Origin: an uncultured Pelagibacteraceae bacterium
Lineage (GTDB): Bacteria; Pseudomonadota; Alphaproteobacteria; Pelagibacterales; Pelagibacteraceae
Assembly: GCA_902575835.1 (NCBI GenBank)
Contig: CACGSX010000003.1
Coordinates: forward strand, 1 to 64,000
DNA: 64,000 nucleotides
Direction of reading: 5' to 3'
Part shown: positions 37,613-60,437 of the stretch, piece after piece
Numbering within the stretch: position 1 is the first letter of the stretch
How the letters are laid out: each line of letters opens with the position of its first letter
Notes under the pieces: model-generated
Databases searched by the model: none
What the model saw: only the letters and a program-made list of their open reading frames with translations
What the model was told of the DNA's origin: nothing
Translations under genes and position numbers: made by a program

Positions 37613-38498
37613 TTTTACTTTTTCTTCTTACCAAATAAATACCAAAAAATACAAATATGGTACCTATTAAATGATAATTCTCTAAAATCTCTGAAAAAAA
37701 TATTATTCCATAAAAAGCTCCATAAATTGTATAGAGGTATAGCGTGAAACCAGTTGTTGATGGTCCTAAATATTTAATAGTTAATGTGTATAGTGAGAAA
37801 GCGATTATACCTGGAGAAATTGCTGCAAACAAAATCCAATAATAAAATTCTTCATTGAATAAAGTTTTTTCAAAATAAAAATGCTCTATAAAATAAAAAG
37901 GCAAAATGGATAAAAAACCAAAGAAAGATATAATTGTTAGTCTTGGAAAAAATTTAAGTTCTGAATTCCATTGAAAAAGCATAACTGTATAAATTGCCCA
38001 GCCTAATGCTGCTCCTAACATCCAAAAATCTCCAGAAGCAAATTTTAATTCAAGAAGTAAATTGATATCGCCCTTTAAAATTACAGCAAACACTCCAACT
38101 AGACAAAAAAGTAAGCCAATAAATTGGAAAATATTTATCTTATCTTTAAAAAGAAAATATGAGATTAAAATTATAAATATTGGTGAAGAAGTATAAAGAA
38201 TTCCCATATTAACAATGGTTGTAGATGAACCAGCCATATATGGAAATATTCCACAAACACCACATCCCATCAAACCTAGAAAAAAACTTCTTTTACTCTC
38301 TTTTTTAATAGTCTGAAAATTATCAACTAAATACTTATAATTTAGGACGAATAAAATAATGAAAAAAATAAACCATCTCCAAAAAGATAAAGATATGGGA
38401 GGAACATCATCAACACCACCTCTTGCTACAATTAAATTACTAGCCATAAAAAGTGGCTGAAACAATAATAGAAAATATCCGATAAAATTTTTATTCAT
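37596..38498 (-). CDS. DMT-superfamily (EamA) transporter
   Basis: This is an inner-membrane protein of 300 residues with about ten hydrophobic helices in two repeated halves, the EamA pattern. The first half ends near VGVFAVILKGD and the second repeats it as GIIFFSEILENYHLIGTIFVFFGIYLVRRK. Such proteins export amino acids or other metabolites, but the substrate cannot be read from sequence. It overlaps the MFS gene by 8 bp and the hydrolase gene by 17 bp, so the three are one operon. Confidence 0.85.
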   Translation of the reverse strand: MNKNFIGYFLLLFQPLFMASNLIVARGGVDDVPPISLSFWRWFIFFIILFVLNYKYLVDNFQTIKKESKRSFFLGLMGCGVCGIFPYMAGSSTTIVNMGILYTSSPIFIILISYFLFKDKINIFQFIGLLFCLVGVFAVILKGDINLLLELKFASGDFWMLGAALGWAIYTVMLFQWNSELKFFPRLTIISFFGFLSILPFYFIEHFYFEKTLFNEEFYYWILFAAISPGIIAFSLYTLTIKYLGPSTTGFTLYLYTIYGAFYGIIFFSEILENYHLIGTIFVFFGIYLVRRKSKNEIKA

Positions 38499-39699
38499 TT
38501 TTATTTAATATTAAAAAAAATAAGTAACTTAAAATGCATAAAAATAAAAAAATTGAAAAAGAAATTTGATAGCTCATTGTAATAGTAGCACCTAAATTTC
38601 TGGAAAAATCTATTATTAAACCAATTATCCATTGTACAAAAAAAGTACCAGAAAATAAAAATACATTGAATGAAGTTAAAGATTTTCCTGCTAGTTTAGT
38701 AGGAAAATTTAATGCTATTGCTGGTTGGGTTAAAGAAATTACTATTGATGATAAAATATAAAGAGTAAACATGGTTGCACCAGCATTGTCTCCCATTATG
38801 ACTATTAAAAATAAAATTATATAACTTATAGGAAGTGTAAATTTTACAATTCTCATACTGTCAATTCCTTTGGAAGATAGTTTTGGCAAAAAATATCCCC
38901 ATATTAAAAAAGAAAAAAGCATAGTTACATTTATCCAAAATAAACCTGTCGCACTTTGTATTGCATCATAACCCGTCACATTTAGCATCCATGGGCCAGC
39001 CCACAATGTTTGTATTGCTTGAACACCTCCATAATTAAAAAATGCAAGCGGTACTAAGCTAATAAAGAATTTATTTTTCCATATGTGGGAAAGGTTTTGA
39101 AGATTATTATTTTGGTCTTCATCCCTCTTAGTTTCCCACGAAGGTATTAAAATTGATATTAATATTATGCTTATCAAAATTAAAGAGGCTATAATTAAAA
39201 AAATAGATCGCCAACCAATTATTGGTAATAAAATTTGAACTGGTAGAGTTGATGCAACAAATCCAAAATTTGCAACCATCAACATCCATGAATTTGCACG
39301 TTGTTGATATTTTTCTTCAAACCATACTCTGTAACCAGTTAAAGGACCCATTAAACAAGCAGCAACACCTACACCAATGAAAATTCTAGAAATTAATAAA
39401 CCTGCAAAACTTTTAGCAAAAGCAAATGAAATAGTTCCAATAAGAGCAATGATTAATAAATATCCGATAACTTTTTTTGGGCCAAATTTATCTAATAACA
39501 TACCAGTAGGAATTTGCATGAGCGAAAACCCTAGAAAATATCCTCCAGCTAAAAGTCCAAGATTTGCAGCACTTAAATTGAATTCAGTTGAAAGAGCGGG
39601 TGTTAATGTTGCGGTAATTGATCTTAGTAAATTTGATATAAAAAAGCCAAAGGCAAATACAGAAAAAATTAGAATACTTTTATTTATTTTATTGATCAT
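38491..39699 (-). CDS. Major facilitator superfamily transporter
   Basis: The 402-residue protein has twelve hydrophobic segments. The MFS motif between helices 2 and 3 reads GMLLDKFGPKKVIG and a related segment follows after helix 4 (GPLTGYRVWFEEKYQQRAN). The central loop (ETKRDEDQNN) is short. The substrate is unknown. It is divergent from the Ntn-hydrolase gene with only 30 bp between starts, so it might export or import something linked to that pathway, but this is weak evidence. Confidence 0.85.
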   Translation of the reverse strand: MINKINKSILIFSVFAFGFFISNLLRSITATLTPALSTEFNLSAANLGLLAGGYFLGFSLMQIPTGMLLDKFGPKKVIGYLLIIALIGTISFAFAKSFAGLLISRIFIGVGVAACLMGPLTGYRVWFEEKYQQRANSWMLMVANFGFVASTLPVQILLPIIGWRSIFLIIASLILISIILISILIPSWETKRDEDQNNNLQNLSHIWKNKFFISLVPLAFFNYGGVQAIQTLWAGPWMLNVTGYDAIQSATGLFWINVTMLFSFLIWGYFLPKLSSKGIDSMRIVKFTLPISYIILFLIVIMGDNAGATMFTLYILSSIVISLTQPAIALNFPTKLAGKSLTSFNVFLFSGTFFVQWIIGLIIDFSRNLGATITMSYQISFSIFLFLCILSYLFFLILNKNE

Positions 39700-39729: not shown

Positions 39730-41313
39730 ATGAATAATCATTCAACAAAAGATAAAGATGCCATTTCTTCAAATGGTATGGCCGCAACATCACATCCAAT
39801 AGCTACAGAAGAAGCTCTTAGAATATTGCAAAAAGGTGGAAATGCAGTGGATGCAGCTATTGCAGCTTCTGTTGTTCTCTCTGTTGCAGAGCCTAATGCC
39901 ACAAGTATAGGTGGAGATTGTTTTGCAATAATAAAAATGAATGGCAAAGACCCTGTTTCATATAATGGATCAGGTATTGCTCCAGCAAAAGCAAATTTTG
40001 ATTATTTCAAGGAAAAGAATATAGATAAAATCGGTTTAACAAGTCCTCACGCAGTAACTATTCCTGGTGCATTAGATGCTTGGAATTCAATTCATAATGA
40101 TTTTGGAAAACTCGATTTTGAGGAGTTGTTTCACAAAGGTATAGATATTGCAAAGAATGGTTTTAAAGTGACTAAAGTTGTTGCTAACGCCTGGAGCAAC
40201 GTATTTAATAAATTAAACGATAACCCATATTCTAGGAAACATATGCTAAATAATGGTAAGAGTTATCAATTTAACGAGGTAAATAAAAATCCTGCACTTG
40301 GAGATACTCTTGAAAAAATTTCAAAAAATGGAGTTAAAGAATTTTATGAAGGATCAATTGCTGAAGATTTAGTTAAAACCTTAAAAGAGTTTGGGGGCTT
40401 GCATACAATTGAAGATTTCCATAAGCAAAAAACTATTAAATCAGACACTTTATCAGATAGATATAGAGATATTATCATTCATCAATGTCCTCCAAGTGGC
40501 CCTGGAATAACAGTTTTAGTAATGATGAAATTATTAGAAAAGTTAGGTATTGAAAAATATGATGTCAATTCATTTGAAAGGCTCCATCTTGAAGCAGAAG
40601 TTACAAAGCAGGCTTATAAACTTAAAGAGGAAAATATTGGTGATCCAGAATTTGTAGATTTAGATTTAAAAAAAATATTAAGTGAACAAAACATAGATAA
40701 TATCTCAAAAAATATATCTATTAATGGCTGCGCAGATGTAGGAGATCTAAATATTCCAAACCATCCTGAAACAGTTTATTTAAGTGTAGTAGACAGAGAT
40801 TTAAATGTAGTTTCAATAATAAATTCTGTTTGCTATGCTTTTGGATCTGGAATAACAGGTGATAAATCTGGAGTGGTTCTTCACAATAGAGGAACTAATT
40901 TTAGAGTTGAAGAAGGTCATCCTAATTGTATTCAAGGATTAAAAAGACCACTACATACCATAATTCCTGGAATAGTTATGAACAACAAAGGAGAATGTGA
41001 ATTATCTTATGGAGTAATGGGAGGACAATATCAACCTGTTGGACAAGTTCATGTTTTAAATAGCATTATTGATTATAACTTAACTCCTCAACAAGCCATT
41101 TCATTTCCTAGAGCTTTCCATTTCAATAACATTTATAAATTAGAGAAAAGTATTGATGAAAAAATTTTTAATAATTTAAAAGAAGTCGGTCATAATGTTG
41201 AGTATATAGATGGTACTCATGGAGGTGGACAAGCAATTCAAATAGACAGAGAAAAAGGAAATTTAGTTGGCGGTTCAGATCCAAGAAAAGATGGATACGC
41301 AAAAGGTTATTAA
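39730..41313 (+). CDS. Gamma-glutamyltransferase-family Ntn hydrolase, possible oxamate amidohydrolase
   Basis: The family makes a self-cleaving proenzyme whose new N-terminal Thr is the nucleophile. Here the cleavage site is most likely before Thr348 (HPE-TVYLSVVDRD). N-terminal GMAATSHPIATEEALRILQKGG and later MGGQYQPVGQ fit the family, and 527 residues is normal. There is no signal peptide, unlike periplasmic Ggt. The Arg that binds the glutamate carboxylate in E. coli Ggt (FREMAP) appears as Ser81 (NGSGIAP), arguing against a gamma-glutamyl substrate. The family also includes HpxW, which hydrolyses oxamate to oxalate and ammonia. The next two genes suggest oxalate metabolism, so that role is possible (inference). 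Confidence 0.8.
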   Translation: MNNHSTKDKDAISSNGMAATSHPIATEEALRILQKGGNAVDAAIAASVVLSVAEPNATSIGGDCFAIIKMNGKDPVSYNGSGIAPAKANFDYFKEKNIDKIGLTSPHAVTIPGALDAWNSIHNDFGKLDFEELFHKGIDIAKNGFKVTKVVANAWSNVFNKLNDNPYSRKHMLNNGKSYQFNEVNKNPALGDTLEKISKNGVKEFYEGSIAEDLVKTLKEFGGLHTIEDFHKQKTIKSDTLSDRYRDIIIHQCPPSGPGITVLVMMKLLEKLGIEKYDVNSFERLHLEAEVTKQAYKLKEENIGDPEFVDLDLKKILSEQNIDNISKNISINGCADVGDLNIPNHPETVYLSVVDRDLNVVSIINSVCYAFGSGITGDKSGVVLHNRGTNFRVEEGHPNCIQGLKRPLHTIIPGIVMNNKGECELSYGVMGGQYQPVGQVHVLNSIIDYNLTPQQAISFPRAFHFNNIYKLEKSIDEKIFNNLKEVGHNVEYIDGTHGGGQAIQIDREKGNLVGGSDPRKDGYAKGY

Positions 41314-41318
41314 TTTAA

Positions 41319-42827
41319 ATGAACTCTAAAATTGTTAGGAATATTATAGAATCACAAAATGATAATCGAATTTCAATAACATCTGAAAGTAGTTCTCCAC
41401 TAAAATTTGTAGATTTAAAATCATTAATAGAAAGAATTTCAAAACAATTATCAGGTAATGGTATTAATAATAAAGATCGTGCAGCAATAGTTTTGCCAAA
41501 CGGTCCTTACATGGCAACTAGTTTTTTGGCGATTTCAAGCTACATGTCTGCTGCACCCTTAAACCCTAACTATAAATCTGAAGAATTCGAATTTTACCTA
41601 GAGGATTTAAAGCCAAAGATAGTGATTGTAGAGAAAAATTCTAAAAATCCAGTAGTAGAAGTTGCAAATAAATTAAAAATTCCTGTTTGCGAAATAAAAT
41701 CAGACGGAAATAATTTAAGCGGAGATTTCAATCTTTTTGAAAAAAGCAGTAATTATGTTTTGCCAGGCGAAGATCATGAAGCTCTTGTGCTGCATACTTC
41801 GGGCACTACATCAAGACCTAAGATTGTTCCATTAACAAATAAAAATATTTTTTCTTCGGCAGATAATATCTCCAAAAGTCTTAATTTAACTGATAAAGAT
41901 CATTGTCTAAATATTATGCCATTATTTCATATACATGGCTTAATTGCGGTTCTTGCAGCATCTATGAAGGTAGGGGCATCTGTATGTGCAAGTAGTGGAT
42001 TTAATGCATTAAAATTTTTAGATAATGCAAAAAGAGAGAAAATAACTTGGTATTCTGGAGTACCAACAATGCATCAAGCAATATTGATGAGAGCAGATAA
42101 AAATCTAGAAACTGCTAAACAATTAAATCTTAGATTTTTGAGATCATCATCAGCATCTCTACCTCCGGCTGTATTTGAAAAACTAAATAAAGTATTTAAT
42201 TGTCCAGTGATAGAAGCATATGGGATGACGGAAGCTACTCATCAGATGACCTCAAATCCATTACCGCCTAAGTCCCAAAAACCTGGATTTGTCGGAATTC
42301 CTGCTGGGCCAGAAGTTTGTATTATGGATACTAATAACAAGATTTTAAATCAAGGAGAAGAGGGAGAAGTTTGCATTAGGGGTGAAAATGTTACTTCCGG
42401 ATATGAAAATAATCCAGATGCAAATAAAAATAGCTTTTCAAATGGTTGGTTTAGAACAGGCGATCAGGGATATTTTGATAAAGATGGTTATCTAAAAATC
42501 TCCGGAAGATTAAAGGAAATAATTAATAAAGGTGGCGAAAAGATTTCGCCTTTAGAAGTCGATAACATTCTTATGGATCATCCAAATATTGAGCAAGCTG
42601 TTTGCTTTGGATATGAAGATAAAATGCTTGGAGAAGATATAGCTACCGCAATAATCATAAAAGAAGGCATGCAGTGTACTGAAGATGATATAAAAATTTA
42701 TGCGAATGAAAAACTTGCGAAATTTAAAATTCCAAAGAAAATATTTTTTGTAAATGAAATTCCTAAAGGTGCAACAGGTAAACTACAAAGAAATACTTTA
42801 GCTAAAAAGTTTGGATTAGTGAACTGA
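41319..42827 (+). CDS. AMP-forming CoA ligase resembling oxalyl-CoA synthetase (AAE3)
   Basis: This is an adenylate-forming ligase of 502 residues. The P-loop HTSGTTSRPK is at 159-168, the adenylate motif reads EAYGMTEATHQM, the hinge GRLKEIINKGGEKISP, and the C-terminal catalytic Lys488 is in KGATGKLQ. SGTTSRPK rather than TGxPK, AAPLNPNYKSEEFEFYL, and TWYSGVPTMHQ are close to plant and yeast oxalyl-CoA synthetases (AAE3/Pcs60) as I remember them. It starts 5 bp after the Ntn hydrolase and overlaps the PanE-like gene by 1 bp. Other small acids remain possible substrates. Confidence 0.8.
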   Translation: MNSKIVRNIIESQNDNRISITSESSSPLKFVDLKSLIERISKQLSGNGINNKDRAAIVLPNGPYMATSFLAISSYMSAAPLNPNYKSEEFEFYLEDLKPKIVIVEKNSKNPVVEVANKLKIPVCEIKSDGNNLSGDFNLFEKSSNYVLPGEDHEALVLHTSGTTSRPKIVPLTNKNIFSSADNISKSLNLTDKDHCLNIMPLFHIHGLIAVLAASMKVGASVCASSGFNALKFLDNAKREKITWYSGVPTMHQAILMRADKNLETAKQLNLRFLRSSSASLPPAVFEKLNKVFNCPVIEAYGMTEATHQMTSNPLPPKSQKPGFVGIPAGPEVCIMDTNNKILNQGEEGEVCIRGENVTSGYENNPDANKNSFSNGWFRTGDQGYFDKDGYLKISGRLKEIINKGGEKISPLEVDNILMDHPNIEQAVCFGYEDKMLGEDIATAIIIKEGMQCTEDDIKIYANEKLAKFKIPKKIFFVNEIPKGATGKLQRNTLAKKFGLVN

Positions 42828-43846
42828 TGACTAAAATTTGTATATTTGGAGCAGGGTCTATTGGTGGATTTATTGCTACAAGTCTAAAAAAAACAAACGC
42901 ACAAGTCTCTTTAATTGCTAGAGGAGAACATAAGAAAGCAATAGAGCAAAATGGATTAACTTTTATAAGAGGTGATAATAAAGTTAATTTTAAATTTGAT
43001 GTAACTGACAATCCTAAAGATTTGGATGAACAAGATTTCATAATTATTTCTGTAAAAGCTAATGCTATTAGTAAAATTTCAGAAAGCTTAAAACCAATTA
43101 TGGGTAAAAAAACTTCAATTATATGCGCCATTAATGGATTGCCTTGGTGGTACTTTCATAAAGCTAATACGGGTACCAAATTAGACAATCAAATAGTTGA
43201 AAGTGTGGATCCAGGTGGAAAGATATGGCAAACTCTTGGACCTGAAAGAGCAATTGGTTGTGTAGTTTATCCAGCCTGTCAGATATTAGAGCCAGGTATT
43301 ATTAAACATAATGGTAATGGTGAACGATTTTCTTTAGGTGAACCAGATGGAACCAGATCAGAAAGACTAAAAATGATATCAAGTTTATTCATAGAAGGTG
43401 GTTTAAAAGCTCCTCAGAAGAAAAATTTAAGAGACGAAATTTGGGTGAAATTGTGGGGGAACTGTTCATTCAACCCAGTAAGTGCTCTAACAAATAAAAC
43501 TATGGATGAAATGGGTAATGATCCAGAGACTTACAATTTAATAAAAGTTTTAATGCAGGAGTGCCAACAAGTTGGGGAAAAAATCGGGGTTAAATTCAAT
43601 ATATCAATTGAGGATCGAATTAAAAGTGGGGTTTCAATTATAGGCCATAAACCTTCGACCGCTCAAGATTTAAATGCTGGTAAACCATTAGAAATAGATC
43701 CAATAATTGGTTCAATTATAGAAATTGCAAATAAACTTGATTTAAATGTTCCAAAATTAAAAGAGATTAATGAAAAGTTAAAGTCCAAGGCGGAAGACTT
43801 GGGTCTTTATACAAGATCAGAATTAATTGATAAATTAACAGTTTAG
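42827..43846 (+). CDS. 2-Dehydropantoate 2-reductase-family oxidoreductase, possible oxalyl-CoA reductase
   Basis: This 339-residue NAD(P)H enzyme of the PanE/ApbA family has the Rossmann motif GAGSIGG at 8-14 and the catalytic Lys208 in WVKLWGNCSFNP. NGLPWWYF (103-110) marks a subgroup distinct from housekeeping PanE. In Methylobacterium, PanE2 of this family reduces oxalyl-CoA to glyoxylate. Translation coupling to an oxalyl-CoA-synthetase-like gene makes that activity a good guess. Pantoate synthesis is the alternative. The stop overlaps that of the TRAP permease gene by 4 bp. Confidence 0.8.
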   Translation: MTKICIFGAGSIGGFIATSLKKTNAQVSLIARGEHKKAIEQNGLTFIRGDNKVNFKFDVTDNPKDLDEQDFIIISVKANAISKISESLKPIMGKKTSIICAINGLPWWYFHKANTGTKLDNQIVESVDPGGKIWQTLGPERAIGCVVYPACQILEPGIIKHNGNGERFSLGEPDGTRSERLKMISSLFIEGGLKAPQKKNLRDEIWVKLWGNCSFNPVSALTNKTMDEMGNDPETYNLIKVLMQECQQVGEKIGVKFNISIEDRIKSGVSIIGHKPSTAQDLNAGKPLEIDPIIGSIIEIANKLDLNVPKLKEINEKLKSKAEDLGLYTRSELIDKLTV

Positions 43847-46506
43847 AAATTTAGTGAAATATCTCTATGTATTGAATTACATTTAGATACATAGATAGCT
43901 TGCTCTTTGGTTAGTTTAGACTGCAATCTTAGTCCAATTGTTTCTTTGATTGCATTATTATATTCCTCAAGTTTTGGCATTAAGTTTTCTTTAGCATTTG
44001 CCCTCCAACTAACTTCTTTATTGAATAACTCAACAACCTCTTTTGATTTTGTTCTAATCGCCATTGGATCAAGTTCATCTGAGTCAACCATTGATAATAA
44101 ATCATCTACACTATTTAAAAATTCATCCATTCCAGAGATCTCGCTTAATTTATCGAACAGTCCATCCATAATTGTAATTGATCTTTCATATACTTTTGTA
44201 TTACTTTCCATAGCTATAAAATAATCTAACTGTTTAATATCTTTTGATACTTCCTCAAGTTTTACTCCATCATTTATGAACATTGCAAACTGATCAAGTA
44301 GATCGTAGGCTCCATCTACATTCTTTCTATATCTTTTTGTTGTTGTATTTTTTGCTTTATTTATTTTGTCAAATTCTGAATTCTTAGCTTGCCAAGTTTC
44401 TGGAATTGTATTTTGAATTACTTCAATTTCGAGTTTTACATCTTCAATTCTTAATTCTATTTTATTTTTCTCATCTAATTCATCATCATCTAAATTTCTA
44501 ATCTCTGCTTTGTATTTTTCGATTTTTTTATTCAATTTAATTATTTTCTTTTGCTTTTTTCTAACAGTAAAATGTAGGTCTCTGTAATCAATAGTGTAAT
44601 CGTTATATTCTACCTCAACTTTTTTTAATTTATCAACAAGAGCAAACGTTCCTAATGCACTATCAAAGTGTTCCTCTAAAATTTCCATTTTATCATCTGG
44701 GAGATTAGTTGGTACCTCTGATTGGAATTTTAAGATTGCATTTTTAATCGTTTCACCGTTGGTATCAAATCTTGCAAATTTGTACTCTTGCAAACAATAC
44801 TGTAATTTGGGATTCATTGGTGGGGGAGCAACATTCGAAGTTAAATACACTCTGTTCGGCAGATAATTTACTAGGCTAGGGTATGCACCAACTATACCTA
44901 GACCTATAAGTTGTAAAATTATAAAAGGCACAACTCCCTTCCAAATATCAAGTGTTTTAACAATTTTTGGAGCAACTCCTTTCAAATAAAAGAGCGCAAA
45001 TCCAAATGGTGGAGTTAAGAAGGAAGTTTGTAAGTTAACACCAATCATAACTCCTAGCCAAACAGCTGTAACGTTAGCTCCTGTTTCCGCCAATAATATT
45101 GGTGCAATAATTGGAACGACAACAACTGCAATTTCTATAAAGTCCAGGAAAAATCCTAGCAAGAAAATTACAATCATAACGACAACAAATTGTGTCCAAA
45201 AACCTCCTGGTAAATCCTGTAAAAAGTCTCTTACTAATTCTTCTCCACCAAAAGCTCTAAATCCTGAAGTAAGCATCGCTGCACCTAAGAGAATAATAAA
45301 TACCATTGAAGTAGTTACACAAGTTTCTGTTACTACTTCTTTTAAAACATTTTCTGTTTTAAAAGTTCTCCAAAAACTCCAACCTATTCCGATAATAAAA
45401 ATGACTACAAAGAAAGCAGTAATATAAATTGCGCCTAAATCTCTTTCCTCCAGATTTTTTACATTTAACTCATAATTTGAAGCAAAGAATGTAATTGGGA
45501 TTAGAGATCCAATAATTAAAATTAAAGGATAAAATGCACTTTTCTTTCCTTCATATAATCTATAACCAGCCATCAAAGTAGCACCAATTGCTCCTATTGA
45601 GCCTGCTTGGTTTACAGTGGCAATGCCCATTAAAATCGAACCTAAAACTGCAAAAATTAATGCAAGAGGTGGTATGATAATTACAACTACTCTTAACCAA
45701 AATTTTAAATCAAAATTTCCTTTAAATGGAACTGGTGGTGCAACACCTCTCTTTATTCTAGCAAAAATAAATACATAGATCATATAAAGAGCAACTAAGA
45801 CTAAGCCCGGCAAAAGTGCTCCCAAGAACATATCACCTGCACTAGATGAACCTACTCTGAATTCTCCTGGCATGTTGAATTCACCAGTTAAGGCTTTATA
45901 ATCTTTTTGTCTTAAATTGTTTGCAACATCTGACGCACTTGCCAACTGGTCAGCAATAATAATTAAAACAATTGATGGAGGAATAATTTGACCTAATGTT
46001 CCTGACGAACAAACTATTCCACTTGCAAGTTGCCTATCATACTTGTTATTCAACATTGTTGGTAATGAGATTAATCCCATTGCAATTACAGTTGCTCCAA
46101 CGATACCTGTGGTTGCTGCTAGTAGTGCTCCTACAAATATAACGGAAATTCCTAGACCGCCAGGAATTGGTCCAAATAACTGGCCCATTGTTATCAATAA
46201 GTCTTCGGCAATTTTTGATTTTTGAAGCATAATTCCCATGAAAATGAATAAAGGAATTGCAATCAAGGTATCTGTTTCTACATCCCAGTAATTACTCCGA
46301 AAATTTGTAATACCTGCAACTAGCCATTCAATGGGTCCATCTACAGCAAAGAAAGCACTAGAGTCTCCCTCGAATATGTAGCCAAAAAATGCTGCTAAAC
46401 CAATTGCAATTATAGCTGAGCCAGGTAGTGCAAAGGCAACCGGGTAACCCGATGCAAGAGCAACGATCATTATTGCAACTAGAATGGCTAAAAAGAATGT
46501 TTCCAT
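43843..46506 (-). CDS. dctM: TRAP transporter large permease with 330-residue C-terminal extension
   Basis: DctM is the sodium-driven membrane subunit of a TRAP transporter. Residues 1-555 are the permease: hydrophobic helices, GVVGAT-like GIVGATVIAMG near 133, and SSGTLGQIIPPSIVLII at 167-183. An insertion after residue 195 and extra helices in the middle are like the large TakM-type permeases. Ordinary DctM proteins end at about residue 430-560. Here a further 330 residues, hydrophilic and Lys/Glu/Asp-rich with coiled-coil stretches at about 645-700, follow in the same frame. No family is recognised for the tail. It starts 3 bp after dctQ. Confidence 0.85.
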   Translation of the reverse strand: METFFLAILVAIMIVALASGYPVAFALPGSAIIAIGLAAFFGYIFEGDSSAFFAVDGPIEWLVAGITNFRSNYWDVETDTLIAIPLFIFMGIMLQKSKIAEDLLITMGQLFGPIPGGLGISVIFVGALLAATTGIVGATVIAMGLISLPTMLNNKYDRQLASGIVCSSGTLGQIIPPSIVLIIIADQLASASDVANNLRQKDYKALTGEFNMPGEFRVGSSSAGDMFLGALLPGLVLVALYMIYVFIFARIKRGVAPPVPFKGNFDLKFWLRVVVIIIPPLALIFAVLGSILMGIATVNQAGSIGAIGATLMAGYRLYEGKKSAFYPLILIIGSLIPITFFASNYELNVKNLEERDLGAIYITAFFVVIFIIGIGWSFWRTFKTENVLKEVVTETCVTTSMVFIILLGAAMLTSGFRAFGGEELVRDFLQDLPGGFWTQFVVVMIVIFLLGFFLDFIEIAVVVVPIIAPILLAETGANVTAVWLGVMIGVNLQTSFLTPPFGFALFYLKGVAPKIVKTLDIWKGVVPFIILQLIGLGIVGAYPSLVNYLPNRVYLTSNVAPPPMNPKLQYCLQEYKFARFDTNGETIKNAILKFQSEVPTNLPDDKMEILEEHFDSALGTFALVDKLKKVEVEYNDYTIDYRDLHFTVRKKQKKIIKLNKKIEKYKAEIRNLDDDELDEKNKIELRIEDVKLEIEVIQNTIPETWQAKNSEFDKINKAKNTTTKRYRKNVDGAYDLLDQFAMFINDGVKLEEVSKDIKQLDYFIAMESNTKVYERSITIMDGLFDKLSEISGMDEFLNSVDDLLSMVDSDELDPMAIRTKSKEVVELFNKEVSWRANAKENLMPKLEEYNNAIKETIGLRLQSKLTKEQAIYVSKCNSIHRDISLNF

Positions 46507-46509
46507 AAT

Positions 46510-47499
46510 TTAATTTTTGACACCTTTTAAAATTTTGTGGCTGCTTTCCATAAAATAGCTTGTGAATTGAATTAACATAGTGACAGCAAAAACAGCTAGG
46601 TATACAGCCATCAAATATAAAAGATAAAGTCCATTAGACCCTTGTTGAGTAACTTCAAAAGCTACAACCGGACCATTTATTATACTCGCTTTTCCATTTA
46701 AACCTAAAAATATTACAATCAACATAAGAGGCACTCCTAAAGCTGCTGATCCAAGTAAATTTGTCCATGCTTTCTTTTTCTCACTAAAAGAAGAATATAA
46801 TACATCAACTCTTACATGGCCTTCATGAATTAATGCATATGCACTTGCAAACAAATAAAGTGCTGCATACCAAAATCTAACTAAATCCCCTTGGAATGCT
46901 TGTTCATATGAAAATATAAATCTTGATAGAACAATCACAAATTCACTTGCTACAACTAATACTGCTAGCCATATAAAGCCAACTGATTTTGTAAAATATC
47001 CAATTACAAAAGAAATTAATATAATTGGAAAGTGAATATAAGTAATTCTTACAGGGGCTTTAACCATTAATGCTTTTACCTCAGGACTGAAGATTGCTTC
47101 CCATAATCTCTCTACAACCATAAATGAAATAACAAAATCAGCTACACCAACTAAAAATACTGCCCAAAATGATGATCTAATAATATATGCTGAAAATCTT
47201 GATAAAATTTTAGAATCTTGTTCTAAAGTTTGGCTATATGTTTTAAAAACATAAAAAATAACTGCAGCAATAAAAATCAGATACAAACCAATTTGTATAT
47301 AACCGTAATTTAAATCAGATCCCTCAAGAGCTTTTTTCTTAAATCCAAATATCTCATGATGTGAAAAAATCTTTTTTATGCCTGGCCAATCATTCCAAAC
47401 TGTTAAAACATTGTTAATGAGAAATGCTAAAGTAAAAGCTAAAACGGAATAACTGATAATTCTGAGATATAGAGAAAGATTTGAATTTTTTGACACCAT
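46510..47499 (-). CDS. dctQ: TRAP transporter small permease, long form
   Basis: DctQ is the small membrane subunit that pairs with DctM. The C-terminal half holds the usual four helices (LRDFGLRFW-like segments are replaced by DLVRFWYAALYLFASAY, then HEGHVRVDVLY and a final pair). At 329 residues it is about 100-150 longer than common DctQ proteins, with extra N-terminal hydrophobic segments at about 12-30 and 62-82. It is separated from dctP by a strong hairpin terminator, suggesting lower expression than the binding protein. Confidence 0.82.
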   Translation of the reverse strand: MVSKNSNLSLYLRIISYSVLAFTLAFLINNVLTVWNDWPGIKKIFSHHEIFGFKKKALEGSDLNYGYIQIGLYLIFIAAVIFYVFKTYSQTLEQDSKILSRFSAYIIRSSFWAVFLVGVADFVISFMVVERLWEAIFSPEVKALMVKAPVRITYIHFPIILISFVIGYFTKSVGFIWLAVLVVASEFVIVLSRFIFSYEQAFQGDLVRFWYAALYLFASAYALIHEGHVRVDVLYSSFSEKKKAWTNLLGSAALGVPLMLIVIFLGLNGKASIINGPVVAFEVTQQGSNGLYLLYLMAVYLAVFAVTMLIQFTSYFMESSHKILKGVKN

Positions 47500-47535
47500 A
47501 GTATTTTAAAATAACTAAGTAATAATCGATTTTAT

Positions 47536-47567
47536 TTAAAAAAAAAGGGCCCAATTATGGGCCCTTT
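47536..47567 (-). terminator. Rho-independent terminator between dctP and dctQ
   Basis: In RNA sense, AAAGGGCCC (47559-47567) pairs with GGGCCCUUU (47544-47552) around a 6-nt loop, a 9-bp stem with a GC core, followed by an unbroken U run. It begins about 20 nt after the dctP stop and ends about 40 nt before the dctQ start. This should end most transcripts after dctP while letting some continue into dctQM. Confidence 0.85.
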
Positions 47568-47587
47568 AATAACTAAGTTTAGTTAGA

Positions 47588-48718
47588 TTACATTCCTAAC
47601 ACTCTGTTTCGTTGCTGAATATATGGTGAATCTGACAAGTTTGTCCAAGCACCAATTTCTTTTCTAGCTTTTAAGAAACTAGAGTGGATTCTCTCAGCGA
47701 GACCACTGCTTGCTCTTGTTTCCTCAAAAACTTCTTCAGCAGCTTTACCGAAACCATCATAAACCTTGTCGCTAAATCTTTCTAATTTAACTCCATGATC
47801 ATTTATTAATCTCTCTAAAGCAGCACCGTTTTTCGCATTGTACTCTGACATCATAACATCATTCTCTGTTGATGCACATGCTTCGATTAATAGCTGATCT
47901 GATTTTGATAAGCTCGTGAACCATGATTTATTACATCCACAAGCTAACATTGAACCAGGTTCATGCATACCAGGATAGTAATAATATTTAGCAGCTTCTT
48001 GGAATTTCATAGCTTCATCATTCCATGGACCTACCCACTCTGTTGCATCGATTGCACCAGAAACAAGGTTTTCATAAATTTGTCCACCAGGAAGTGAAAC
48101 TGGAGATCCTCCAAGTTTACCGATAACTTGTCCACCTAATCCAGGCATACGCATTTTAAGACCTTTGAAGTCATTAGGGCTTCTAATTTTCTTATTAAAC
48201 CATCCACCCATTTGAACTCCTGTGTCACCACACATGAAGTTTTTTAGACCAAATTTATCAGATAGCTCATCCCATAATTGCTGACCACCTGCAAATCTAA
48301 TCCATGCATTCATTTCAGTGTAAGTGAAACCGAAAGGTACGGCAGTAAAATAACCCCATGCAGGATCTTTTTTCACCCAGTAGTAGTCTGCTGCATGATA
48401 CATTTGCGAGTTACCTGATGCAACTTCATCAAATGAGTCAAACGCTTTAACCCTCTCGTTTGCGGCATAGTAAGTAACTTGAATTCTTCCATCACTCACG
48501 TCTGTAATTCTTTGAGCAAATCTTTGCGCACCTGTACCAAGACCTGGAAAATCTCTTCCCCAAGTTGCCACCATCGAAACTTCGATTCTTTCTTTGGCAA
48601 CTGCAGGAGCAGCTAAAGATGATGCAGCAACAGCAGCAACACCAGTTGCAGCAGCAGCTTTAAAGAATTTACGTCTTGAAGGAGTTTTACCCTTCAATAG
48701 TTTTTTATCTTTAATCAT
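47588..48718 (-). CDS. dctP: TRAP substrate-binding protein, TakP-like
   Basis: This periplasmic binding protein feeds the DctQM permease. It carries a twin-arginine-type leader (SRRKFFK, Arg15-16; cleavage near AVA-KE at 41). The mature part has WGRDFPGLGTGAQRFAQ, GDTGVQMGGWF, KMRMPGLGGQV and the DATEWVGPWND block, all close to TakP-type proteins that bind 2-oxo monocarboxylates such as pyruvate; lactate is a related possibility. The 376-residue length is normal. A strong Shine-Dalgarno (GAGGAG) precedes it. First gene of dctPQM. Confidence 0.9.
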   Translation of the reverse strand: MIKDKKLLKGKTPSRRKFFKAAAATGVAAVAASSLAAPAVAKERIEVSMVATWGRDFPGLGTGAQRFAQRITDVSDGRIQVTYYAANERVKAFDSFDEVASGNSQMYHAADYYWVKKDPAWGYFTAVPFGFTYTEMNAWIRFAGGQQLWDELSDKFGLKNFMCGDTGVQMGGWFNKKIRSPNDFKGLKMRMPGLGGQVIGKLGGSPVSLPGGQIYENLVSGAIDATEWVGPWNDEAMKFQEAAKYYYYPGMHEPGSMLACGCNKSWFTSLSKSDQLLIEACASTENDVMMSEYNAKNGAALERLINDHGVKLERFSDKVYDGFGKAAEEVFEETRASSGLAERIHSSFLKARKEIGAWTNLSDSPYIQQRNRVLGM

Positions 48719-48844: not shown

Positions 48845-50143
48845 TTAATTATTGAATATTTTGGCATGGTTTAACATGCTTAGATCTTCAAATTGTTTGC
48901 CTATAATTTGCACTCCTAAAGGCAATTTTTTTTCACCTTTCAAAATTGGCAGTGAAATGCAGGGCACATGTGCAAGAGACCAAATCTTATTAAATTCTGG
49001 ACTCCCAGTTGTCTTAAATCCTTTGTCAGCAATTCCACAACTACTTGGGGTTATAATTGCATCAAACCTTTCAAATATACTATCTAAGTTTTTTGAGTAC
49101 GTTCTCATCGCATATAAAGCTAAAGCATAATCTTTTGCCGAATGTTTTAGTCCATTAATAATCGCTTTCTTAATTTCTATAGAAAGTTTTCCTTTTGAAG
49201 TTTTGTAATAATGATGGAAATTTTGAGCCATCTCTGTCTCATATATAATTGTATGACAATCAATCATATCTTCAAAATATTTGGGAGCAGTCTCAACTTT
49301 TAATATTTTTTTATTATTTAAAATAAATTTGTTAAATGATTTTTTTGAAATACTATCAACATTTCTCCAGCGTTTTGTTTTATAAAAAACAAATTTTGAT
49401 TTTTTTTTTTTTATTTTTTTATTAAGAAAATTACTACTTATTGTTGTTTCATCTGCATCGTCTCTAGCAAACAAAACTTTCGATAAGAGTTCTACATCGC
49501 TAATTGTTTTTCCAAATACTCCGACTTGATCTAAGTTATATGATGTTTGCAAAACACCACTTCTAGAGATTAATCCATAGGTAGGTTTATAACCAACAAC
49601 TCCACAATAAGAGGCTGGCCTAATTACAGATCCACCCGTTTGAGTTCCAATTGATAATGGTGCCATATCAGATGCAATAACAGCAGCAGAGCCACTAGAA
49701 GAACCTCCTGGTGTTCTTGAATAATCGTGTGGATTTTTAGTTTTTGATGGCGATAAGAAAGCTAATTCACAAGTTACGGTTTTACCCATAATTATTGCTC
49801 CAGCCTTTTTTAAGAGCTCAACAATTTTAGCATCTAAATTAGTCTTTATTTTTAATTTTATTCTTGCGCCATATTTTGTTGGCATTTCAGATGTTGAAAT
49901 AATATCTTTAAGTGCTACTGGTAGACCATGCAAAGCCCCTAAAGATTTCAATTTTTTTCTCTGATTGTCAGAATTTTTTGCATCACTAAGTAGTTTTTTT
50001 TCATTAAAATATTCCCAAGCTTGAATATTCTTATCATATTTTTTTTTTTGATTGATATATGCTTTACAAAGTTCAACGGAAGTTAATTGTTTATTTTTAA
50101 GTTTTTTTAAAATTTGTTTTGCTGATAAATTTAAGATATTCAT
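48845..50143 (-). CDS. Amidase signature family hydrolase
   Basis: The Ser-cisSer-Lys triad is Lys79 (ALKD), Ser148 (GGSSSGSA) and Ser172 (GTQTGGSVIRPA), with the usual 69- and 24-residue spacings. The 432-residue protein has no signal peptide, so it acts in the cytoplasm on an amide or related substrate that cannot be predicted. It is the last gene of the alcohol dehydrogenase/ABC operon, 7 bp after the GlpT-like ATPase gene. Its base composition is more A/T-rich than its neighbours (several long A or T runs). It is not obviously GatA, since gatB and gatC are absent. Confidence 0.87.
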   Translation of the reverse strand: MNILNLSAKQILKKLKNKQLTSVELCKAYINQKKKYDKNIQAWEYFNEKKLLSDAKNSDNQRKKLKSLGALHGLPVALKDIISTSEMPTKYGARIKLKIKTNLDAKIVELLKKAGAIIMGKTVTCELAFLSPSKTKNPHDYSRTPGGSSSGSAAVIASDMAPLSIGTQTGGSVIRPASYCGVVGYKPTYGLISRSGVLQTSYNLDQVGVFGKTISDVELLSKVLFARDDADETTISSNFLNKKIKKKKSKFVFYKTKRWRNVDSISKKSFNKFILNNKKILKVETAPKYFEDMIDCHTIIYETEMAQNFHHYYKTSKGKLSIEIKKAIINGLKHSAKDYALALYAMRTYSKNLDSIFERFDAIITPSSCGIADKGFKTTGSPEFNKIWSLAHVPCISLPILKGEKKLPLGVQIIGKQFEDLSMLNHAKIFNN

Positions 50144-55633: not shown

Positions 55634-56695
55634 TTATGGAACCAACACTGCACGACCTTTAATCTTACCATCATTTAAGTCATGTAGTGCTTTGTTAGCT
55701 TCTTCAAGTTTGTATTCTTTCATTGAAAGTTTTACTAAACCTTTATCTGCTAGTTCCATTAATTCATATAATTCAGCCCATGTACCTACTAAGCTTCCAA
55801 CTATACTTTTTTCTTGATCGATCATATCAATCGCCAAAACTCTTATTTCTTCTCCGTAACCTACAATGTAGAAAGTCCCAGTTGCTTTGGTCATCTTAAT
55901 TCCCATTGGCGTAGAACCTTTTTCACCAACAAAATCTATAACAGCCTCTGCACCTTTACCTTTTGTAAGTTCTTTTACTTTTTCAATCTCATTTCCATCT
56001 ATTAAAACCCCATGGTCAGCTCCCAGTTCCATTGCGTGTTCTAAAGGTGCTTTTGCTTTTTCAACAACAATAATATTTGCAGCACACATTGCTTTCATAC
56101 ATTGAATTGCTATATGTCCTAATCCACCAGCACCTATGATTACACAATTTTCACCTGGCAAAAGGTGTCTTGTAGCTTTTTTAACTACTCTGTAAGCAGT
56201 TAAGCCTGCGTCCGAAAATGGTGCAACGTCTATTGGACCTAAAACTTTTGGAATTTTTATTAAATTTCTAACACTAGTTTGAAGTAATTCTGAATACCCT
56301 CCGTGTTTTACATTCAAACCTGCAAAAATTGGATCTTCAGCATGCATATCATTTCCTCTTCTACAATCCAAGCATGTTCCTCCTGTGCCAGAAACTTTAG
56401 GATGTAAAATAACTGCATCACCTTTTTTAAATCCTGTAACATCTTTACCAACTTCCTCTATCCATCCAGCGTTCTCATGTCCCATAACCATAGGCAATAG
56501 ATCGTTATTTTGATCTGTAATGTGCTTCCAAACTCCCTCAATTATATGCAAATCAGTTCTACAAACACCTGCAGCTCCAATTTTAACAATGACATCGCTT
56601 GCTTTCTCAATTTTAGGATTTGGTAACTCTTCACCTGTGACCCAAACATCTGCTTTCATTTCTGGGTCATACTTATGTAAAACCTGTGCTTTCAT
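55634..56695 (-). CDS. Zinc-dependent alcohol dehydrogenase
   Basis: This medium-chain NAD(P)-dependent dehydrogenase has 353 residues. Catalytic-zinc ligands are Cys in GVCRTDLH and His-Glu in MGHENAG; the NAD motif is GAGGLGHIAIQ. The structural-zinc loop has only CLDC where four Cys are usual (the others are Gly and His-type positions). MKAQVL at 56695 is the start because AGAGGA lies just ahead (56701-56706); an in-frame ATG at 56728 has no such site. It is the first gene of the operon with the GlpV-like importer, so it may oxidise the imported alcohol or a product of it. Confidence 0.87.
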   Translation of the reverse strand: MKAQVLHKYDPEMKADVWVTGEELPNPKIEKASDVIVKIGAAGVCRTDLHIIEGVWKHITDQNNDLLPMVMGHENAGWIEEVGKDVTGFKKGDAVILHPKVSGTGGTCLDCRRGNDMHAEDPIFAGLNVKHGGYSELLQTSVRNLIKIPKVLGPIDVAPFSDAGLTAYRVVKKATRHLLPGENCVIIGAGGLGHIAIQCMKAMCAANIIVVEKAKAPLEHAMELGADHGVLIDGNEIEKVKELTKGKGAEAVIDFVGEKGSTPMGIKMTKATGTFYIVGYGEEIRVLAIDMIDQEKSIVGSLVGTWAELYELMELADKGLVKLSMKEYKLEEANKALHDLNDGKIKGRAVLVP

Positions 56696-56785
56696 TATTT
56701 TCCTCTCTAAATTTTTTTTTATAAACAAATCTTAAATTGAAATAAAAAATATGTCTAGAAAGTTAGAATAATTTTAAATAGCGAA

Positions 56786-56805
56786 TTACAACTTGAGATT
56801 GTTAA
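56786..56805. promoter_or_regulatory. Operator-like dyad upstream of the alcohol dehydrogenase operon
   Basis: TTACAACTTGAGATTGTTAA is an imperfect palindrome overlapping the stop of the 2-hydroxyacid dehydrogenase gene. Its core ACAAnnTnnGATTGT (56788-56802) matches the dctP palindrome at 11 of 15 bases, in the same orientation and at the same 93-bp distance from the next start codon. A shared regulator is an inference. Confidence 0.45.
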
Positions 56806-57755
56806 TTAACTTTGTTTTTGCAGCTACCTGTTTTAAAAAACTCGTCCATATTATCTATTGCCAGATTAGCCATTGCAGTTCTAGTTTCTTTAGTTGCGCT
56901 GCCCAAGTGGGGAAGAATAAAAGCGCTTTTATGTTTAAGATATCCAGGATTTAAATTTGGCTCATTTTTGTAAACATCTAGCCCAACTGCATAAACTTTT
57001 CTTCTTTCTAAGGCATCTATTAAAGCTTCATCTTCAATTATATCTCCTCTTGCAACGTTTGTAACAATTGCTCCTTTAGGCAAATATTCAATTGTGTCTT
57101 TGTTGATCATATCAACCGTTTCTTTTGAGGCTGGACAACAAACAGACAATACATCTGATACTGAAAGTAAGTCTTTTAAATTATCATGGTAAGTAGCTCC
57201 GTTTTCTTTTTCTTCACTTAACTTAGATCTATTATGATAGTGAATGATCATTCCTAAAGATTTAGCAACCTTAGCGATTTTTTGTCCAATTCTTCCCATA
57301 CCGAGTATTCCTAATCTGGCACCTGTTAATTGCTTTCCAATTAAGTAATCTGCAGACCACTTCCATCCACCGTCTCTAGCACTTTCGATTCCTTCAGATG
57401 CTCTTCTGCATGCACCTAATATCAACAAAACCCCAATTTCTGCAGTAGCATCAGTTAAAACGTCTGGCGTGTTTGTTACTGCAATCCCTCTTTTCTTTGC
57501 AGCTTCTAAATCTATATTTCCAAAACCTACAGCAAAATTTGATATAATTTTAACACTATCAGGTAATTGATTAATTGTTTCTGCATCAAGCTTATCTGTT
57601 AGAGCTGACAATATACCATCACAGCCTGCACTCATCTCTATTAACTTCTTTTGAGAGTAGAGTTCATCATTTAAATTAAAGTTAGCATCAAATAATTCTT
57701 TAGCTTTATCCTCACAAGATCTTAAAAGCCTTCTCGTGATTAAAATTTTTTTCAT
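56802..57755 (-). CDS. D-2-hydroxyacid dehydrogenase (glyoxylate/hydroxypyruvate reductase type)
   Basis: This NAD(P)-dependent enzyme has 317 residues with the nucleotide motif GMGRIG at 152-157, the catalytic Arg in NVARGDIIEDEAL, and His283 in LPHLGSAT. The profile fits the GyaR/GhrB group that reduces glyoxylate or hydroxypyruvate. Neighbouring oxidases and the aminotransferase act on related C2/C3 acids. It follows the FAD oxidase gene by 12 bp. Confidence 0.87.
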   Translation of the reverse strand: MKKILITRRLLRSCEDKAKELFDANFNLNDELYSQKKLIEMSAGCDGILSALTDKLDAETINQLPDSVKIISNFAVGFGNIDLEAAKKRGIAVTNTPDVLTDATAEIGVLLILGACRRASEGIESARDGGWKWSADYLIGKQLTGARLGILGMGRIGQKIAKVAKSLGMIIHYHNRSKLSEEKENGATYHDNLKDLLSVSDVLSVCCPASKETVDMINKDTIEYLPKGAIVTNVARGDIIEDEALIDALERRKVYAVGLDVYKNEPNLNPGYLKHKSAFILPHLGSATKETRTAMANLAIDNMDEFFKTGSCKNKVN

Positions 57756-57767
57756 TTTATTTTTAGA

Positions 57768-59141
57768 TTAATTTAGATCAAAAACCTTACCAGGATTCAT
57801 GATGTTGTTTACATCGATACTTCTTTTAATAGCTTTCATCACTGGTAAATTATCTGGATGTTCTCTAAGTAAATAATGTTTTTTCTGGAGCCCAATTCCA
57901 TGTTCTCCAGTAATTGTTCCCTCTAATTCAAGAGCTTTATTAATAAGATCATCACTATACTGTCTAATTTTTTTTTGTTTTTCTTCATCATCTGGGTCGT
58001 ATAAAATTATAGAGTGAAAATTTCCATCACCTACATGTCCTACCATTGGTGCAGTTAATCCCAATCTTTTTACTTCTTTTTCTGCCCAAGAAATACATTC
58101 AACTAATTTAGAAATAGGAACACACACATCTGTAGAATAAACTTTCATATCATTTCCTAAAGCTTTTACAGAATAATAAACATCATGTCTTGCTTTCCAT
58201 AATATTTTTTGTTCTTCAGGTGAAGACGCCCATTGAAAATCACTACCACCATTATTCTTTGATAATTCCTCAACAATTTTTACAGACTCATTATTTGATA
58301 GCTCACTTCCATGAAATTCGAAAAATAGTGTTGGTGAAGCTTTAATGTTTTCTAGCTTTGAATATTTAATACTTATTTCCATCTGATCTTTATTTAACAT
58401 TTCAATTCTTGCAATTGGAACGCCATACTGAATGACTTCTTGCGCTGTCTTTACTGCTGAGTCAAGGTCAGGAAAATAACAAACAGCGCTCATAATACTT
58501 TCTGGAATTGGAGATAATCTAAGTTGGACCTCAGTTATGATTCCAAGTGTTCCTTCTGATCCAATAAATAAGTTAGTTAAATTATATCCAGCAGAAGATT
58601 TTTTAGCTCTTGCACCTGTTTTGATTATATCTCCATTTGGTAAAACAACTGTCAGACCCGAAACTACAGTTCTCATTGTTCCATATTTAACAGCCATAGT
58701 TCCTGAAGCAGATGTAGATGCCATTCCACCTAAAGCAGCATCGGCACCTGGATCTATTGGAAAGAATACACCGTCTTCTCTTAAATATTCGTTTAATTGT
58801 TTTCTTGTTACATTTGCTTGAACCCTACAATCAAAATCCTCAGCATTTACACTTAATACTTTGTTCATTTTCTCTAATGAAATTGTAATTCCATTTTGAT
58901 TACCAACCACATGACCCTCTAGAGAAGTACCAGTTCCAAAAGGAACAACTGGAATTTTGTGCTCGTTACATATTTTTAGAGTTTGAGAAACTTCCTCATT
59001 TGTCTCTGGAAAAACTACTGCTTTTGATAAAATTGGATTGTATGTATCTTCACCTCTAGCATAATTTGATCTAGTAGATTCAGATGTAGAAAATCTTCCA
59101 TTAAAAATCTTTTTTAATTCTGTTTGGACAGCTTCATTCAT
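57768..59141 (-). CDS. FAD-linked D-lactate/glycolate dehydrogenase
   Basis: This protein belongs to the VAO/GlcD family. The N-terminal FAD domain has VPFGTGTSLEGHV and DPGADAALGGMASTSASG; the C-terminal domain has GHVGDGNFH and GTITGEHGIGLQKK, which form the metal/substrate site. The 457 residues and the TGTSLEG motif are closest to single-subunit D-lactate dehydrogenase (LDHD/DLD) rather than to GlcD, which needs GlcE and GlcF (not found here). It oxidises a D-2-hydroxyacid and passes electrons on, probably to a cytochrome or flavoprotein. Confidence 0.87.
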   Translation of the reverse strand: MNEAVQTELKKIFNGRFSTSESTRSNYARGEDTYNPILSKAVVFPETNEEVSQTLKICNEHKIPVVPFGTGTSLEGHVVGNQNGITISLEKMNKVLSVNAEDFDCRVQANVTRKQLNEYLREDGVFFPIDPGADAALGGMASTSASGTMAVKYGTMRTVVSGLTVVLPNGDIIKTGARAKKSSAGYNLTNLFIGSEGTLGIITEVQLRLSPIPESIMSAVCYFPDLDSAVKTAQEVIQYGVPIARIEMLNKDQMEISIKYSKLENIKASPTLFFEFHGSELSNNESVKIVEELSKNNGGSDFQWASSPEEQKILWKARHDVYYSVKALGNDMKVYSTDVCVPISKLVECISWAEKEVKRLGLTAPMVGHVGDGNFHSIILYDPDDEEKQKKIRQYSDDLINKALELEGTITGEHGIGLQKKHYLLREHPDNLPVMKAIKRSIDVNNIMNPGKVFDLN

Positions 59142-59178
59142 TTACTAATAATACAAAAAAATTTATTAAAAATACAGT

Positions 59179-60348: not shown

Positions 60349-60437
60349 AATTTTTCGTCGACAAACTAACTGAAAAGCAACTTCATGTCTATTTATTTAA
60401 AGTGAAAATAATAATAAAAATTATTTATAAAAAATAT

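Follow-up and report, generated by a model that had tools for sequence, protein, structure and literature searches.

A three-gene locus of SAR11 bacteria that may lead from an oxalyl amide through oxalate to glyoxylate

Each of the three kinds of enzyme considered here is known. In plants, oxalyl-coenzyme A (oxalyl-CoA), the product of the ligase AAE3, passes to oxalyl-CoA decarboxylase (Oxc). For bacteria, a 2023 survey of oxalate users marks an oxalate CoA-transferase as being without a known gene (PMC10192776), and a 2026 survey lists an oxalyl-CoA reductase, with oxalyl-CoA made by CoA-transferases (PMC12927642); the word "ligase" does not occur in the accessible portions of the two texts. 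According to the available part of a study of Cupriavidus necator (PMC7486775), its ApbA2 is 51% identical to PanE2 of Methylobacterium extorquens, and deletion of ApbA2 slows growth on oxalate. The oxamate amidohydrolase activity of HpxW is cited in the accessible part of PMC5270733. Here, three nearly contiguous genes for an N-terminal nucleophile (Ntn) hydrolase, a ligase and a reductase were analysed in a stretch of 64,000 nucleotides, termed the window, from an uncultured Pelagibacteraceae bacterium of the SAR11 group (assembly GCA_902575835.1, contig CACGSX010000003.1, positions 1 to 64,000). The genes are read as one operon in which an oxalyl-amide hydrolase would feed the assimilation of oxalate to glyoxylate, a reading to which a probability of about 0.55 is assigned.

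The proposed route has four steps. During the first, the hydrolase would cleave itself before Thr348, and Thr348 would then hydrolyse oxamate, yielding ammonia, or an N-oxalyl amine, with release of oxalate; this is the least certain step. During the second, for which the sequence gives strong support, an AAE3-type ligase would convert oxalate, ATP and CoA to oxalyl-CoA. During the third, a PanE-type reductase would reduce oxalyl-CoA with NAD(P)H to glyoxylate, as its subgroup, pairing and context suggest. Finally, glyoxylate would be fed into central metabolism, for which malate synthase is the probable entry point in SAR11.

The ligase and reductase pair

The four best matches of the ligase among solved structures are all oxalate–CoA ligases (446, 416 and 405 bits, and 289 bits for a truncated one), and the best match to a solved ligase of another kind reaches 200 bits. 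The protein is 45% identical to Arabidopsis AAE3 (5ie0, 446 bits) and carries the AMP-binding (225.2 bits) and AMP-binding_C (52.4 bits) domains. In the tree it lies in a bacterial clade that joins the oxalyl-CoA synthetases of Arabidopsis, Lathyrus and yeast with moderate support (87/81), the branches of the outgroups, E. coli CaiC, FadD and MenE, being very long. Four blocks, HGLxA, TWYxxVPTxHQ, RSxSASL and EAYxMTEAxHxM, match the plant enzymes in full and yeast Pcs60 in part, and are absent from E. coli CaiC, FadD and MenE in the alignment; they may bind oxalate or line the acyl pocket. An AAE3-like identity had been proposed in an earlier sequence-only reading of the window, and the bit scores, the tree and the shared blocks all point to it.

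The reductase belongs to a subgroup of PanE proteins that is marked by a PWWYF-type insertion and separated from E. coli PanE with a support of 99/97. E. coli PanE lacks the insertion, as do three of the other four PanE-like SAR11 proteins compared. Lys208 aligns with the Lys of "ELWRK" in E. coli PanE, which we take to be catalytic, and the family models ApbA (79.1 bits) and ApbA_C (88.6 bits) match. Motif, alignment and tree agree with the subgroup and the lysine named in the sequence-only reading, for which a housekeeping PanE in a genome with no other panE would have been damaging. This objection is not borne out. PanB exceeds the cut-off in none of five genomes of the lineage of the window (G000, G039, G078, G080 and G086, its own included; 82–97% complete), so that pantothenate synthesis does not explain the reductase, which in the tree stands apart from E. 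coli PanE and from three of those four SAR11 proteins, the fourth sitting on a very long branch with an uncertain position. In its own genome, only one further ApbA match passes the cut-off, and it is weak and partial (25.3 bits, 74 positions); a second PanE-like gene exists in some other genomes, for example G004 and G054. The surroundings of the subgroup are also informative: in Azospirillum ramasamyi its gene has oxlT, pntAB, gcl and ureide genes as neighbours, and in Phyllobacterium it lies beside pntAB, with gcl, hyi and frc close by.

Orthologues of the ligase (E-value of 1e-110 or better) were found in 94 of the 385 genomes of a class sample, own genome included, and in 30 of the 398 genomes of an overlapping phylum sample; the first of these counts suggests that another bacterial means of making oxalyl-CoA, besides the known one, may have been overlooked. 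Of 94 loci in other genomes, 83 have a reductase homologue directly next to the ligase and in the same orientation. These loci represent the 93 non-own genomes (G144 by way of a wider stretch, L089) and G890; some of the stretches end at contig edges, so that the numbers of genes seen close to the ligase, and of those not seen there, are both minimum values. The trees of ligase and reductase agree in placing the SAR11 pair closest to G252 and G248. It can be observed that OxlT accompanies the pair in M. bullatum (629.7 bits, cut-off 335) and in G649 (645.1 bits), and malate synthase A accompanies it in three genomes of one family (f68), its gene being directly upstream in G209 (837.7 bits, cut-off 594.5) and in two relatives. 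Since malate synthase consumes glyoxylate, this context points to glyoxylate as the product. Tct-type transporter genes lie near the pair in several loci, and a set of ATP-binding cassette (ABC) transporter genes with a gene of the fumarylacetoacetate hydrolase family lies near it in Rhodobacteraceae SC52 and G827. The conversion of oxalate to glyoxylate through oxalyl-CoA is held with high confidence as a prediction, supported by the phylogeny, by the frequent pairing and by the neighbours OxlT, malate synthase A, gcl, frc, pntAB and the Tct-type genes.

Two genes recur near the pair. The fumarylacetoacetate-hydrolase-family gene does so where an ABC set is present (6975–7658 in L181, 11253–11957 in L273), and a class-III aminotransferase, of omega-amino acid type by eye, occurs in L270, L278, L328 and L330; the latter could use glyoxylate as amino acceptor.

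Decarboxylation of oxalyl-CoA was considered as another fate and rejected. Oxc (TIGR03254) exceeds the cut-off in none of 13 genomes, own included, the best score being 218 of the 739 bits required, as the sequence-only reading had anticipated from the window; formyl-CoA transferase (Frc) was not searched for. Of the two thiamine pyrophosphate (TPP) enzymes of G000 that were scanned, one is an acetolactate synthase, and the other is unassigned, with 191 of 739 bits for Oxc. Malate synthase exceeds the cut-off in 11 of 12 SAR11 genomes, the own genome being counted through a fragment at a contig end.

The hydrolase

The hydrolase matches the gamma-glutamyltranspeptidase family model G_glu_transpept with 432.5 bits, and its Thr348 aligns with the catalytic Thr391 of E. 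coli Ggt. At the positions of Ggt Arg114, Asn411, Gln430, Asp433, Ser462 and Ser463, which we take to be the gamma-glutamyl-binding residues, it has Ser81, Cys368, Arg387, Asn390, His409 and Thr410; the replacement of the Ggt arginine by Ser81, noted previously from the sequence, is thereby confirmed. Arg387, His409 and Thr410, together with an MGGxxQP block, are common to the hydrolase and HpxW. The same residues and block also occur in nearly all non-Ggt rows of the alignment, 2nlz included, so that this HpxW-like pocket speaks against gamma-glutamyl binding and is not proof of oxamate as substrate. No hydrophobic leader was recognised at the N-terminus by eye, no signal-peptide program having been used.

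The AlphaFold model of the hydrolase has a mean predicted confidence (pLDDT) of 89.6. Its best solved fold match is 2nlz (Z 52.4), with a sequence match of 247.5 bits; the large chain of HpxW gives Z 27.8 and many Ggt large chains about 30, and functions are not separated by this comparison. Orthology to HpxW was rejected on account of separate clades in both trees, the second of which was built without seven near-duplicate rows. As the sequence-only reading had it, the residues are not those of a true Ggt, but neither does the protein lie in the HpxW clade. No hpx gene was identified beside the hydrolase, and no HpxX or HpxZ was recognised among the neighbours read, part of which were also scanned with family models. 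A role of the enzyme in freeing oxalate from a small oxalyl amide is predicted at slightly less than even odds.

Three side results belong here. The amidase at 48845–50143 was tried as an HpxY-type enzyme and is not supported (AtzE-type models, 183 of 461 and 175 of 426 bits). In the Klebsiella pneumoniae record CP125156.1 (L190), hpxW is unannotated and not readable in a single frame. N-Oxalyl-diaminopropionate (beta-ODAP) as substrate in soil relatives was an idea only, on which the literature gave nothing decisive.

Linkage of the three genes and competing explanations

The layout described in the sequence-only reading was reproduced from open reading frames and DNA: the hydrolase and ligase genes are 5 bp apart (stop TAA at 41311–41313, ATG at 41319), ligase and reductase overlap by 1 bp (TGATG), and the motifs SGTTSRPK and TWYSGVPTMHQ of the ligase and PWWYF and Lys208 of the reductase are present. 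Co-occurrence across SAR11, which that reading had proposed to examine, was followed among the best 80 of at least 587 candidate loci. There, the full set is found in 36 of the 46 loci whose hydrolase is at least 60% identical; one of the other ten ends at a contig edge and nine are without ligase and reductase. Spacing in the 36 loci is 2–11 bp between hydrolase and ligase and -1 or +5 bp between ligase and reductase. In a search of 150 genomes, a hydrolase at least 69% identical was found in 23 besides the own genome, and 21 of these carry both partners; the exceptions are G089, at a contig end, and G088, with DctM directly after the hydrolase. Presence of the cassette across SAR11 is patchy but linked. 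Ligase and reductase stand at a contig end in G048, with the hydrolase not in view, and G038 has a reductase fragment. Five SAR11 loci (L119, L122, L128, L131 and L134) retain the hydrolase and a divergent transporter gene of the major facilitator superfamily (MFS), ligase and reductase being missing; by the hydrolase tree, with G088 (L134) as representative, this looks like loss. The own assembly is 82% complete.

In addition, the association recurs outside SAR11. Six members of the genus g283 (f175; some genomes are listed twice, the class and phylum samples overlapping) have the hydrolase-ligase-reductase order of SAR11, and ABC transporter genes precede it in the five whose surroundings were read. 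The ligases of this genus and of SAR11 lie in different clades, which implies either two origins of the order or its selective retention. Six other families supply eight genomes, three of them from a single family, in which the hydrolase lies 1.0–2.8 kb from the ligase, beyond the reductase and on the opposite strand; the distance is 5.8 kb in G144, and G367 and G456 have it within 10 kb. The hydrolase clade (E-value of 1e-100 or better) is present in 56 of 80 ligase-bearing genomes vs 13 of 80 ligase-less ones, the former being 80 of the 93 and the latter a spaced 80 of 286, with four genomes of the window's family left out. In eight of the 56, no more than 4 kb separates it from the ligase (0.13 expected), and in 11, from eight families, no more than 10 kb (0.32 expected); distances were measured from the ligase and not the reductase, genome sizes were rounded and genomes were treated as independent. 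This recurrent linkage supports an oxalate-supplying role of the hydrolase, the amide not being named by it.

Several observations weigh against the three-enzyme pathway. For the pair, an adjacent reductase is missing at 11 of the 94 ligase loci, identity between the reductase of the window and the paired PanE of M. bullatum is only 35%, and a member of the wider subgroup in A. brasilense stands amid genes for a tripartite ATP-independent periplasmic (TRAP) transporter and an aldehyde dehydrogenase, not oxalate genes. Furthermore, the PanE tree is unresolved inside the PWWYF subgroup, and PanE2 of M. extorquens is not among its rows. For the hydrolase, the two HpxW rows group by themselves (100/100), apart from the clade of the window's protein (96/96 and 91/92 in the two trees), although the HpxW and Ggt rows have long branches and the exact placement of HpxW is unsure. 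The NCBIfam gamma-glutamyltransferase model TIGR00066 also matches (372.3 bits, cut-off 357.85), a score that the residue comparison seems to outweigh, suggesting that the protein is no true Ggt. Regarding the linkage, 24 of the 80 ligase-bearing genomes are without the hydrolase clade, and 13 of the 80 ligase-less genomes have it. The association in presence is weaker without small genomes (P = 0.001 for genomes of at least 2 Mb, 0.047 from 2.5 Mb and 0.015 from 3 Mb upwards; uncorrected for phylogeny); at 2.5 Mb or more, the clade occurs in 51 of 72 ligase-bearing vs 11 of 24 ligase-less genomes. Genome size therefore explains a good part of it. At an E-value of 1e-60, no AAE3-type ligase was found in 27 of the 28 genomes searched in which the hydrolase lies apart from the cassette, these being 28 of the 43 non-cassette loci among the best 80, with many genomes partial. 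Finally, a scan with family models recognised no oxalate transporter beside the SAR11 cassette.

The strongest competing explanation is that the pair converts oxalate to glyoxylate and the hydrolase is an older, independent amidase, sharing the operon for co-regulation or by chance. It is considered unlikely, though it accords with the lone hydrolases just described, with the SAR11 relatives that keep the hydrolase and the divergent MFS gene when the pair is missing, and with G252 and G248, whose hydrolase genes are on other contigs. A lone hydrolase must be useful without the pair, for example in the release of ammonia or an amine. That the hydrolase and the pair come close together again in other families, where both convergent and co-directional arrangements occur, argues for the linked pathway instead. 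In four loci of marine alphaproteobacteria (L146, L150, L151 and L175), a hydrolase without ligase or reductase lies between genes that by eye resemble thioredoxin reductase and GMP reductase.

It is improbable that oxalate is misleading, with some other small dicarboxylic or 2-oxo acid as substrate of the ligase and the corresponding acyl-CoA as that of the reductase. Changes of substrate come easily to AMP-forming ligases, and the bacterial evidence consists of homology and context throughout, but the neighbouring OxlT, frc, gcl and malate synthase genes and the blocks that the ligase has in common with the oxalyl-CoA synthetases of plants, and that CaiC, FadD and MenE lack, favour oxalate. 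Even less credence is given to flow in reverse, with glyoxylate oxidised to oxalyl-CoA by the reductase and disposed of as oxalate by the ligase or a thioesterase: no Oxc was found to use oxalyl-CoA, ATP is spent by the ligase in the forward direction, and OxlT is paired in the two loci examined by hidden Markov models. The housekeeping functions implied by automatic family names (gamma-glutamyltransferase, fatty acid–CoA ligase, ketopantoate reductase) were rejected as most improbable, given the missing Ggt substrate residues, the lack of PanB over cut-off in five reductase-bearing genomes and the tree positions of all three proteins.

Neighbouring genes, significance and known relatives

Table 1. 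Coordinates and assignments of the three genes and their flanking transporter genes in the window
Feature	Position	Strand	Remarks
Ntn-hydrolase, gamma-glutamyltranspeptidase superfamily, non-Ggt pocket	39730..41313	+	527 amino acids; proposed oxalyl-amide (oxamate or N-oxalyl amine) hydrolase
Putative AAE3/Pcs60-type oxalate–CoA ligase (oxalyl-CoA synthetase)	41319..42827	+	502 amino acids
PanE/ApbA-family reductase, PWWYF-type subgroup	42827..43846	+	339 amino acids; proposed oxalyl-CoA reductase to glyoxylate
MFS transporter, divergent from hydrolase	38491..39699	-	substrate not assigned; family match
TRAP transporter DctM (887 amino acids, long C-terminal extension), DctQ, DctP	43843..48718	-	convergent with reductase; pathway membership not shown

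The divergent MFS gene and the convergent TRAP transporter (Table 1) flank the cassette in the SAR11 loci that were read. As an oxalate transporter the MFS protein is not supported, scoring 26.8 bits with an oxalate/formate antiport-type model whose cut-off is 374.85. The C-terminal extension of DctM (43843–46506) follows the membrane part, is rich in charged residues and is conserved in SAR11 relatives. Loci with the hydrolase only have a second TRAP set nearby, and an amidase-like gene, judged by eye, was present in three that were read. In L094 (G070), the reductase is 91% identical to that of the window, the hydrolase 72% and the ligase 78%; the mismatch may be a sign of recombination inside the cassette. 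On the minus strand at 55634–62740, a run of genes for 2-hydroxy- and 2-oxo-acid enzymes was observed, none over the cut-offs shown: a zinc alcohol dehydrogenase, a glyoxylate-reductase-like protein (258 of 455 bits), a GlcD-like protein (335 of 568), an aminotransferase and two LldD-like FMN enzymes. The run may be an island for C2 and C3 acids next to the cassette.

The sequence-only reading knew of no description of this set in SAR11. No description of the gene set was found in the open-licence literature, and the same holds for the pairing of ligase and reductase in bacteria, for how widely it occurs and for its repeated association with this hydrolase clade; the oxalate potential of SAR11 has already been stated, in a 2025 paper according to which offshore SAR11 genera share genetic potential for oxalate metabolism, no genes being named in the accessible part (PMC12636525). 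A broader proposal, advanced tentatively and with the odds against it, is that the hydrolase clade, widespread in alphaproteobacteria and named gamma-glutamyltransferase until now, is a new class of oxalyl-amide hydrolases, acting on oxamate, N-oxalyl amines or both and separate from HpxW. If true, then together with the ATP-dependent oxalyl-CoA synthetase and the oxalyl-CoA reductase it would give SAR11 and other alphaproteobacteria all the steps that lead to glyoxylate from a dissolved organic nitrogen pool so far overlooked. SAR11 is a very common ocean bacterium and glyoxylate a usable food molecule, and with three small proteins the pathway can be tested.

Compared with known systems, the ligase is most like AAE3/Pcs60 of plants and yeast (PDB 5ie0, 6qjz and 8aff) in its identity to Arabidopsis AAE3, its blocks and its clade, and differs in being bacterial and encoded in an operon with a reductase. 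The reductase shares the PWWYF-type PanE subgroup and the oxalate and glyoxylate neighbours with PanE2 of M. extorquens and ApbA2 of C. necator, a likeness drawn through the subgroup and not through the PanE2 and ApbA2 sequences themselves. It is paired with an ATP-dependent ligase, whereas C. necator apbA2 lies close to the frc-oxc operon, as given in the available part of PMC7486775. The Bacillus halodurans "cephalosporin acylase" 2nlz is the closest solved relative of the hydrolase by both sequence and fold. E. coli Ggt has the same fold and catalytic Thr, but equivalents of all six residues of its gamma-glutamyl pocket are missing from the SAR11 protein. HpxW (PDB 5hft) shares the superfamily, the Thr nucleophile and the Arg387/His409/Thr410 type of pocket, and is set apart by its separate clade and by a Cys where the SAR11 hydrolase has Ser81.

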